The notes beneath the pieces were generated by a model. The model made no database searches. It was not told the origin of the DNA and worked only from the letters and a program-made list of their open reading frames with translations. 64,000 nucleotides of DNA, taken from assembly GCF_017349355.1 (NCBI RefSeq), contig NZ_JAFMPM010000004.1, positions 62,001-126,000 of the forward strand, in the 5' to 3' direction. This stretch comes from Thiothrix fructosivorans. Its GTDB lineage: Bacteria > Pseudomonadota > Gammaproteobacteria > Thiotrichales > Thiotrichaceae. The translations under genes were made by a program, and so were the position numbers. This document shows, piece by piece, positions 17,387 to 20,766 of this stretch (position 1 is its first letter; every line of letters starts with the position of its first letter).

Positions 17387-18292
17387 ATGTATAGCCCTTT
17401 CCTGCCCGACAATGATGCTCTGTACCAACGCTGGCGTGAGCAAAAGCTGCAACACTACCCTGTGTATCTGGAAGACCTGATCGTGGAAGTCCGTGACCCG
17501 CGCAACCTAAGTGATGCCGAGCATCAAGCGATGCTGACACGTTGCCGCAAAGCCAATATGGTGATTTATGCGGGCAAGACCGGGGATGATCCCGACCGCT
17601 CCATTCCGCACAGGATGGCACAACAATTTGGTTTACAGCACCTCGACCATAACTGGTTGGCGGATGATGACGGGCTGACTTCCCTGACCGTTGCTGCGGC
17701 GGATAGCGGGGAGCGTGAACATTACATCCCCTACAGCAACCGTCTGATCCAGTGGCACACCGATGGCTATTACAACCTGCCAGAGCAACAAATCCACGGC
17801 CTGCTGCTGCATTGTGTGCGTAGTGCGCCGGAGGGTGGGGAAAACCGCTTGCTGGATCACGAAATTGCCTACCTGCGCCTGCGTGACCAGAACCCGGATT
17901 ACATCCGCGCCCTGATGCAGTCGGACGTGATGACCATCCCTGCCCGTACTGACGGCGATACGGTTGCCCGTGCGGAAAATGTCGGGCCTGTGTTTGCCGT
18001 TGACCCGCTGACAGGGGATTTGCACATGCGCTACACCATCCGTGGGCGCAATGTGGTGTGGAAGGATGACTCACTGACCCGCCAAGCACTTGCCGCCCTG
18101 AGTGACTGGCTGGAATGCGGCTCCAGCTACATTTTCCGGGGCAAGCTCGAACCGGGCATGGGGCTGGTCAGCAATAACGTGCTGCACGACCGCAGCGGCT
18201 TTACGGACACTGAAAACCACCGCCGCCTGCTGTACCGCGCCCGCTATATGGACAGGATTGCAGGCACAAGTATCCGGGAGTGGCTGGCATGA
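17387..18292 (+). CDS. TauD/TfdA-like Fe(II)/2-oxoglutarate oxygenase
   Basis: This 301-residue protein has a jelly-roll oxygenase fold. The metal triad is visible as QWHTDGYYN (His and Asp of HxD) and SNNVLHDRSGFTD (distal His), with the 2-oxoglutarate arginine in NHRRLLYRARYMD. It resembles the gamma-butyrobetaine hydroxylase/clavaminate synthase branch. The stop overlaps the nrdD start (ATGA), so it belongs to the anaerobic ribonucleotide reductase operon. An oxygen-dependent enzyme there is unexpected; it could scavenge oxygen, modify a reductase component, or act in microaerobic transition. These are inferences. The substrate is unknown. Confidence 0.8.
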   Translation: MYSPFLPDNDALYQRWREQKLQHYPVYLEDLIVEVRDPRNLSDAEHQAMLTRCRKANMVIYAGKTGDDPDRSIPHRMAQQFGLQHLDHNWLADDDGLTSLTVAAADSGEREHYIPYSNRLIQWHTDGYYNLPEQQIHGLLLHCVRSAPEGGENRLLDHEIAYLRLRDQNPDYIRALMQSDVMTIPARTDGDTVARAENVGPVFAVDPLTGDLHMRYTIRGRNVVWKDDSLTRQALAALSDWLECGSSYIFRGKLEPGMGLVSNNVLHDRSGFTDTENHRRLLYRARYMDRIAGTSIREWLA

Positions 18293-20000
18293 GCTGCGTG
18301 GAGGTTGCCGACACCATCGACAGTTACCTGCAACAGCGTGACTGGCGGGTGAATGCCAACGCCAATCAGGGTTATTCCGTGGGCGGGCTGATCCTGAACA
18401 CGGCCGGGAAAATGATTGCCAATTACTGGCTTGATCATGTGTACCCACCGGAGATTGGGCAGGCGCACCGTGAGGGCGATGTGCATATCCACGACCTCGA
18501 CATGCTGGGGGGGTATTGCGCGGGCTGGTCATTGCGTACCCTGTTGCACGAAGGCTTCAATGGTGTGCCGGGGCGTACCGATGCCAAAGCACCCAAACAT
18601 CTGGACAGCGCCTTGTGGCAGGCGGTGAATTTCCTCGGCACATTGCAGAACGAATGGGCGGGCGCACAGGCGTTCAGTTCCTTCGATACCTATCTTGCTC
18701 CCTACATCCGCAAGGATGCGCTGGACTACGGGTATGTGCGGCAACTGATGCAGTCGTTCATTTTCAACCTGAATTTCCCCTCGCGCTGGGGGTCGCAGAC
18801 ACCTTTCACGAATTTGACCTTCGACTGGACTTGCCCGGATGACCTGAAAACCCAAATCCCGGCGATTGCTGGGGAAGAAATGCCGTTCACCTACGGCGAC
18901 TGCCAAGCGGAAATGGGCATGATCAACCGCGCTTTCCTCGAAATCATGGAAGAAGGTGATGCGTGTGGGCGGGTGTTTACCTTTCCCATCCCCACCTACA
19001 ACATTACCCGCGATTTCCCGTGGGATGATCCTGACACCGACCTGCTGTTCCGGGTGACGGCAAAATACGGTTTGCCGTCACCCGGAACTTCCTCAAATCA
19101 GGGTTGGAACCGGGCATGGTGCGCTCGATGTGTTGCCGCTTGCAACTTGACCTGCGCCAACTGGAACGGCGTGGCAATGGCCTGTTCGGTTCGGCGGAAC
19201 AGACTGGCTCGCTGGGGGTATTTACCATTAACTGCGCCCGTCTTGGCTATGTGTATCGGGGTGACAAGGCGGGGCTGTTTGCGCGGCTGGATACCTTGCT
19301 GGAACTGGGGCGCGACAGCCTTGAGATTAAGCGCAAGGTGATCCAACAGCACATGGATCAGGGGCTTTACCCCTATACCAAACGTTATCTGGGGACATTG
19401 CGTAACCATTTCTCCACCATCGGCGTGAACGGAGTGAATGAGATGATCCGCAACTTCAGCGGGGATACTGCCCACATCGCCGAAGCAGATGGGCAAGCCT
19501 TGGCGGTGCGTTTGTTACGTCGCATTCGCCGCCGCTTGCGTGAGTTTCAGGCGGAAACTGGACATCTGTACAATCTGGAGGCTACCCCGGCGGAAGGCAC
19601 GACTTACCGTTTTGCCAAGGAAGACCGCAAACGCTTCCCCGACATTTTGCAGGCGGGTACGCCGGAACGCCCATACTACACCAATTCCACCCAGTTGCCA
19701 GTGGGTTACACTGATGACCCATTCGTGGCACTGAGCCTGCAAGACGGTTTGCAAACGCTGTACAACGGCGGCACGGTGCTGCATCTGTACATGCAGGAAC
19801 GTATTTCCAGTGTGGCAGCGTGCAAGCAATTGGTGCGCCGTAGTCTGGGACGTTTTCGCCTACCATACATAACTATTACCCCCACCTTTTCCATCTGCCC
19901 CAAGCACGGTTATCTCGCCGGGGAACACGAGTTTTGCCCGCGCTGTGATGACGAATTATTACGCCAAAAACAACAGGAATCCTTATGCACCATCGAGTAA
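18289..20000 (+). CDS. nrdD: Class III (anaerobic) ribonucleotide reductase large subunit, one frameshift
   Basis: The protein reduces ribonucleotides with a radical chemistry that works without oxygen. The front reads DWRVNANANQGYSVGGLILN, REGDVHIHDLDMLGGYCAGW and NEWAGAQAFSSFDTY, all classic NrdD. There is no N-terminal ATP-cone, so allosteric activity control is absent or different. Near 19080 the frame breaks: KYGLP must be followed by NFLKSGLEPGMV in another frame, which a single lost base (CCGTCACCC from CCGTACACCC) would explain. The continuation holds RSMCCRLQLD (active-site cysteine region) and ends with the zinc site ICPKHGY...FCPRC. The glycyl-radical motif is not in this protein; it follows as a separate gene. 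Confidence 0.88.
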
Positions 20001-20176
20001 ACCCGCAACCAGTCAGGTTGGAAAACAGTGAACGCCAGCGTTGCGAAGTGTGGACACGGGTCATGGGCTACCACCGCCCGGTCAGCTCTTTCAACCCCGG
20101 CAAGCAAAGCGAACATGCCGAACGCCTTCCTTTTGTAGAACCCGCCCCACGGTTGGAAGGAAAACGCCCGTGTTGA
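19985..20176 (+). CDS. Separate glycyl-radical domain of class III ribonucleotide reductase
   Basis: This 63-residue protein contains RQRCEVWTRVMGYHRPVSSF, the C-terminal glycyl-radical loop of NrdD; Gly28 would carry the radical. Normally this loop is the end of the large subunit. Here it has its own ATG at 19985, preceded by AGGA with normal spacing, and overlaps the nrdD stop by 16 bases. It is followed by nrdG with a 7-base overlap. The likely role is to be activated by NrdG and to dock into the NrdD barrel, as YfiD does for pyruvate formate-lyase. I believe short annotated proteins of this kind occur in some other proteobacteria, but could not check. Confidence 0.8.
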   Translation: MHHRVNPQPVRLENSERQRCEVWTRVMGYHRPVSSFNPGKQSEHAERLPFVEPAPRLEGKRPC

Positions 20177-20766
20177 AATTAGGCGGGATGGTTCCGCTGA
20201 CCAGCATCGACTTTCCTGGGCATTTGGCAGCCGTGTTGTTTTGTCAGGGCTGCCCGTGGCATTGCCGCTACTGCCATAACCCGCACCTGCTGCGCACTGA
20301 TGTATCCAGCAAGCTGGAATGGGCAGAAGTAATGCGTTTTTTGCGGGAACGGGTTGGGTTTTTGGATGGGGTGGTGTTCAGCGGCGGCGAGCCATTGTTA
20401 CAACCCCGTTTGCTGGAAGCGATACGTGAAGTGAAGGCGTTGGGATTTAAGGTTGCTCTGCACACAGCGGGGATCATGCCTGCACGCTTGGCGAAAGTGT
20501 TGCCCTATGTGGATTGGGTGGGGCTGGACATCAAAGCACCTTTCGATGCCTACAAAAAAGTAACGGGCTTGGCAGGCAGCGGTTTCAAAGCTGAAGAGAG
20601 CTTAGATTTGTTGCTGGCTGCTAGGCATGTAGATTATGAAATAAGAACGACAGTTGACCCTGCGCTGCTGGGGAGAGATGACATTGAGCGTTTGGCAGAA
20701 TCACTGGCAAAGCTCGGGGTAAAGCATTTCTCATTGCAGGCTTGCCAACCAACGGCAAATCCCTGA
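20170..20766 (+). CDS. nrdG: Anaerobic ribonucleotide reductase activating enzyme
   Basis: This radical SAM activase generates the glycyl radical on the reductase. The cluster cysteines are in FCQGCPWHCRYCHNPHLL. DGVVFSGGEPLLQP is the SAM-binding GGE motif, and YVDWVGLDIKAPFDAY follows the NrdG2-type pattern. The start is placed at GTG 20170, which has GGAAGG upstream and overlaps the end of the small glycyl-radical gene; a longer in-frame extension to 20041 would overlap that gene with non-homologous sequence. At about 198 residues it has the usual length. Confidence 0.9.
   Translation: MLKLGGMVPLTSIDFPGHLAAVLFCQGCPWHCRYCHNPHLLRTDVSSKLEWAEVMRFLRERVGFLDGVVFSGGEPLLQPRLLEAIREVKALGFKVALHTAGIMPARLAKVLPYVDWVGLDIKAPFDAYKKVTGLAGSGFKAEESLDLLLAARHVDYEIRTTVDPALLGRDDIERLAESLAKLGVKHFSLQACQPTANP

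Follow-up and report, generated by a model that had tools for sequence, protein, structure and literature searches.

The usual description of a glycyl-radical enzyme is of a single chain that includes the radical loop covalently, the proven exception being a repair protein. In the Thermotoga maritima-type class III ribonucleotide reductase (RNR) (NrdDh; PDB 4U3E, 4COI), the loop belongs to the same chain as the catalytic barrel and lies a few residues past the zinc site. A described case of a separate loop, according to passages of PMC8683613, is YfiD/GrcA, a free-standing glycyl-radical-loop protein acting in trans to complete a radical enzyme; YfiD mends a pyruvate formate-lyase (PFL) that is complete but has been cleaved by oxygen, and its N-terminal half is disordered. 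The same passages count only two validated spare-part proteins, both for PFL, and their authors consider others possible. RNRs in pieces are also on record. The class II enzyme NrdJa/NrdJb is cut into a barrel chain and a C-terminal chain (excerpts of PMC9669993), and phage nrdD genes can likewise be fragmented; the cases in the relevant part of PMC3653736 are single phages, mostly linked to introns, inteins or homing endonucleases, with one case unexplained.

The locus described here lies in a window of 64,000 nucleotides from Thiothrix fructosivorans, its genes are on the + strand, and positions are those of the window. It shares the barrel and the zinc site with the T. maritima enzyme, but its radical loop is a separate protein. 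As opposed to YfiD, the small protein has no complete NrdD to mend in its genome, and its loop matches the NrdD family PF13597 rather than the PFL-type family; as opposed to NrdJa/NrdJb, which is a class II enzyme without a glycyl radical, the enzyme encoded in the window belongs to class III. On the comparisons below, the locus very probably represents a class III RNR lineage that is normally made of two polypeptides, with the radical subunit docking in trans. The two predicted genes, each with its own start, are conserved across Pseudomonadota, and the small gene lies beside that of the activase.

Starting from the 5′ side, a TauD/TfdA-family dioxygenase gene (17387..18292; PF02668, 63.1 bits) is a neighbour outside the enzyme, its stop overlapping the nrdD start (ATGA) in the window sequence. 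The large subunit, which the sequence-only reading had taken as one frame from 18289 to 20000, is in fact encoded in two: an N-terminal part at 18289..19341, whose true frame is lost at about 19071–19088 within a perfect inverted repeat (19047..19088; 18-nt arms, 6-nt loop), and a C-terminal part at 19104..20000. The second frame contains RSMCCRLQL and the zinc site (C..H..C..C) in CPKHGYLAGEHEFCPRC, and the cysteines of the RSMCCR motif and of the zinc site are invariant in a 28-row NrdD alignment. By eye, RSMCCR and GLFGSAEQ fit the description of RNRdb subgroup NrdDh4, for which a passage of PMC4493059 gives Met instead of Ser ahead of CCR and Phe in the finger loop. The window nrdD has no match to the ATP-cone, of which one congener (L006) retains a copy. 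The large-subunit frame ends as TPTFSICPKHGYLAGEHEFCPRCDDELLRQKQQESLCTIE-stop at 20000, directly after the zinc site, so that the C-terminal glycyl-radical loop of a class III NrdD is absent from this chain, as the sequence-only reading had claimed.

The loop is found in the next gene. A 63-residue frame at 19985..20176, annotated as nrdD in NZ_CP072750.1 (WP_207249099.1), starts with its own ATG at 19985, has AGGA six bases upstream and overlaps the end of the large frame by 16 nt; it encodes the NrdD glycyl-radical loop only, which bears out the earlier description of this putative free-standing glycyl-radical subunit. The predicted radical glycine is residue 28 (20066–20068), in RCEVWTRVMGYHRP. 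The GTG start (20170) of a dedicated radical-SAM activase, nrdG2 (20170..20766; WP_242632647.1), overlaps the small-subunit stop, and its TIGR02495 score of 197.6 bits exceeds the cut-off of 131.15. The Pfam NRDD model PF13597 (562 positions) is covered in three pieces, 2–239 and 255–531 by the two large-subunit parts (267.9 and 286.8 bits) and 531–560 by the small protein, which thus begins in the model at the position where the large subunit ends. In a Pfam search at E up to 0.1, the small protein matched PF13597 only, with no match to the PFL-type glycine-radical family, which we take to be PF01228.

The arrangement is general among relatives. Among 57 genomes, the one under study included, NrdD is present in 9, namely this genome, five of the same genus (G002 with two copies, G005, G007, G010 and G015) and three from other families (G042, G055 and G048), and it is split in all of them bar G048; in G005, a stop with an N directly after it separates the large and small parts. 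Within the genus, NrdD is patchy, occurring in 5 of 15 congeners plus the present genome. In a class-level scan, 37 of 369 genomes have a match, which is split in 28, full-length in 7 and fragmentary or weak in 2; at phylum level, 66 of 397 genomes have one, comprising 17 split (4 of which are already in the class count), 48 full-length (2 with an insert) and 1 weak. The best 80 of at least 573 relatives in named genomes include 78 split loci, a count reproduced by a different method, together with one fused (L152) and one cut by a contig end (L134); relatives are thus not generally fused, a check on which the earlier reading had staked its proposal. Listed among the split named genomes are Stutzerimonas stutzeri, Pseudomonas indica, Thauera linaloolentis, Acidovorax radicis, Rubrivivax benzoatilyticus, Acidithiobacillus ferruginosus, Afifella pfennigii and Pararhodospirillum oryzae, and reading of the frames shows L043 to be split as well. 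NrdD occurs in 32 of 100 genomes related to a Chitinibacteraceae genome, and of these 29 have a large subunit without the loop and 3 are full-length; 31 of these 32 loci were classified from DNA, G970 not being among them.

For a non-redundant count, we kept 201 loci scoring at least 700 bits to the core model, of which 171 are non-redundant and 137 score at least 1000 bits; the 30 rows excluded below 700 bits consist of 24 with no loop recognised by the model, 5 split and 1 fused. The 137 close relatives comprise 133 split, 3 fused (L022, L152 and L206) and 1 uncalled locus, and the 133 resolve into 130 with the genes side by side, 2 with unlinked genes (G642 and G1000) and one with the genes 2.4 kb apart (G1008). 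The 34 distant non-redundant rows at 700–1000 bits, outside the 137, are 26 fused and 8 split. In a tree of 129 rows, from which the window was left out to avoid artificially joining its two frames, a 97-row clade of the window's kind holds 93 split and 4 fused sequences (L022, L152, L164 and L206), so detachment is not obligatory, and the remaining 32 rows hold 25 fused and 7 split (L198, L199, L204, L205, L250, L251 and L252). At least 7 changes between the split and fused states are needed, 5 of them forced by well-supported branches. The tree was built quickly and contains several long branches, and it does not distinguish gain from loss. With 133 of 137 close relatives split, and with unlinked genes in two genomes, the earlier suggestion that a detached radical domain is the normal state here finds strong support.

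The two frames could still yield an ordinary one-chain NrdD if a programmed frameshift or stop readthrough joined them in translation. We compared 131 loci, the 130 side-by-side splits plus the window. In 32 of them the small frame keeps the phase of the large one after an intervening stop, and a lone TGA is all that lies between the two in G941 and G942, as this reading would have it. Against it, the frame relation is not conserved, the small frame being in phase 0, 1 and 2 relative to the large one in 32, 47 and 52 loci, and the small start can lie anywhere between −38 and +258 nt relative to the large-gene end (the median is +30, and 23 loci overlap). The small genes also have their own ribosome sites: ATG is the best start in 127 of 131, and 107 of 131 have a start with a Shine–Dalgarno match of at least 5 nt, versus 9.9 expected when the bases upstream of every candidate start are shuffled (in the window the match is 4 nt long). 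The encoded proteins are 47–100 residues long, with a median of 62. Finally, the small gene lies 9 kb from the large one in G642 and on another contig in G1000, which excludes joining by frameshift in those genomes. Given the varying phase and the unlinked cases, we rejected a programmed frameshift, and we regard a one-chain product as highly improbable.

The two-polypeptide reading also agrees with the position of the small gene, which is tied to the activase gene. An nrdG-type motif, defined here as the radical-SAM CxxxCxxC pattern and not as a family model, lies downstream of the small gene in 124 of 130 loci, at a distance of no more than 300 nt in 121 of them, and none was found in the other 6, in the available DNA or within 3 kb. 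G642, G1000 and G1008 also have the motif after the small gene, which sits directly before nrdG even where the large gene is elsewhere. Two other origins of the junction were considered and set aside: an assembly error, because the same junction recurs in many genomes, and a phage source, because a tblastn search of 50,697 phage records with the small protein gave no match.

A YfiD/GrcA-like role, in which the small protein serves only as a spare part and the normal NrdD is complete and fused, could draw on the extra unlinked copies in G293 (L174) and G1020 (L238), on a spare-part-like form elsewhere (L239–L242) and on three split genomes that have a full-length NrdD too (G787, G963 and G1009). 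Yet no complete NrdD accompanies the split one in the 28 split genomes of the class, nor is there a second NrdD in the genome under study (4.36 Mb in 8 contigs, listed as 100% complete), where the sequence-only reading had named a second complete nrdD as a point to check. Genomes with a split NrdD only speak against the spare part as a general account; for the present genome we rejected it, there being no second NrdD to repair, and overall it seems quite improbable.

The frameshift within the large subunit is a different matter. Over 10,189 nt, the window is identical, with zero mismatches, to plasmid pTfr153 of T. fructosivorans ATCC 49748 (NZ_CP072750.1), in which the palindrome and the frameshift are also present. 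The arms of the repeat (19047–19064 and 19071–19088) are perfect and the shift of frame falls inside it. At the same site, the frame is unshifted in the congener loci L008, L009, L011 and L012 (three genomes), and perfect arms in these loci and in L004 are no longer than 4–6 nt. Hairpin-templated (quasipalindrome) mutation leaves a perfect inverted repeat, and the frameshift in the window nrdD looks like a mutation of this type. Compared with L011, the two parts of the large gene give dN 0.009 with dS 0.37 and dN 0.024 with dS 0.64; purifying selection is still strong in both, which dates the break as recent.

One could read the split and the frameshift alike as decay of the whole locus. The large subunit is, after all, frameshifted, and the PLSDB table of pTfr153 genes, which omits pseudogenes, does not include it; another RNR, an NrdA-type protein with an intein-like sequence, is present in the genome. 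The split, however, is common to relatives with intact genes, and the constraint remaining in the large-gene parts indicates that the frameshift is a recent event, distinct from the division into large and small genes. General decay of the locus is improbable. The lineage would be one of two-chain enzymes, whose pTfr153 representative appears to have been broken recently at a hairpin; since its large subunit is frameshifted, the enzyme of this particular genome is probably inactive.

Elsewhere the split enzyme appears to be functional. On megaplasmid pHG1 of Cupriavidus necator H16, a large gene (H16_RS32680), a 66-residue nrdD (H16_RS32675) and nrdG stand in a row, and the large frame stops after the zinc site, which makes it a split NrdD. 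A passage of PMC2864759 calls NrdDG of this strain essential for complete denitrification, and the combination of the two suggests that a split class III RNR works. The same passage lists the nrdDG genes of C. metallidurans as Rmet_5137 and Rmet_5139, with one number skipped.

The small proteins are conserved around the predicted radical site. Across 32 of them, R17, E21, W23, R25, V26, M27, G28, Y29, R31, P32, N37, G39, K40, E43 and R47 are invariant, and the N-terminal 10–20 residues are variable. For the small gene, comparison of the window with five congener loci (four genomes) gives a dN/dS of 0.08–0.18 over 45 codons; pairs with L004, a metagenome-assembled genome (MAG) with N in the gene, give 0.17–0.54, the highest value counting against the two-polypeptide reading, and other pairs 0.01–0.38. 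These substitution rates indicate that the radical loop is under purifying selection. In an alignment of the fused L152 with T. maritima NrdD, the loop directly follows the zinc site. An AlphaFold model of L152 (28 rows) supports the barrel (pTM 0.74) but leaves the radical part below pLDDT 50 and the loop unplaced, and the best Foldseek match of L152 is 4u3e_A (TM 0.65). The small protein modelled alone reached a pTM of 0.27, and it had no match by sequence among solved structures at E up to 10.

A mechanism can be proposed on this basis. The large polypeptide would supply the barrel and zinc site, that is, NrdD minus its radical loop, and the small one the loop with the radical glycine. NrdG would place the radical on this glycine in either the free or the docked small subunit, which would then fit into the barrel of NrdD next to the catalytic cysteine in place of a covalent loop. 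A detachable subunit could also be exchanged after cleavage by oxygen, which we offer as a proposal only. A bolder version, which we hold as tentative and rather doubtful, makes the radical centre a diffusible, exchangeable small protein across Pseudomonadota, charged by NrdG while free or loosely docked, swapped after oxygen cleavage and carried in extra copies on mobile elements, with L198/L199 and L205/L250–L252 arriving at this independently. If true, the radical centre would be a mobile cofactor rather than a fixed domain.

The small gene is annotated already, as NCBI names its product nrdD, but as far as we have seen it is not discussed in the literature: a search of open-access papers, with most subscription papers outside its scope, found no description of a free-standing cellular NrdD radical subunit. 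A two-chain enzyme that is common in Pseudomonadota and has a tractable host in C. necator would allow direct tests of whether a free small protein can receive a glycyl radical, store it and be exchanged together with it, and of whether damage by oxygen costs the cell only about 60 residues. For practical work, the NrdD of such a species, expressed alone, would lack the radical site.

Several related loci came to light. Four orphan proteins of 103–123 residues (L239–L242, from G859, G892 and twice from G921) carry an NrdD-type loop (such as ITRITGYF) and share an N-terminal part; they are unlinked to full-length NrdD, occur in 3 of 148 genomes of their phylum and may serve NrdD as a YfiD-like spare part. 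The full-length NrdD (L261) of G921, the genome with two orphans, reads RVTSHG versus RITGYF in two relatives, so that its radical glycine seems lost in this assembly. Besides their operon copies, G293 has an extra small-protein copy (L174) beside what by eye are ssb- and RecT-like genes, and G1020 has one (L238) beside a relaxase-like gene, also by eye; both are possibly carried by mobile elements. The NrdA-type RNR of the genome under study (L271:1015-5019, G000:C6) is a 1334-residue frame whose PF02867 match falls into two pieces; the roughly 1.1 kb separating them contains sequence that by eye is intein-like. In a Geobacteraceae MAG, a second radical-loop frame (L104:7118-7465) lies about 1.3 kb downstream of the first.
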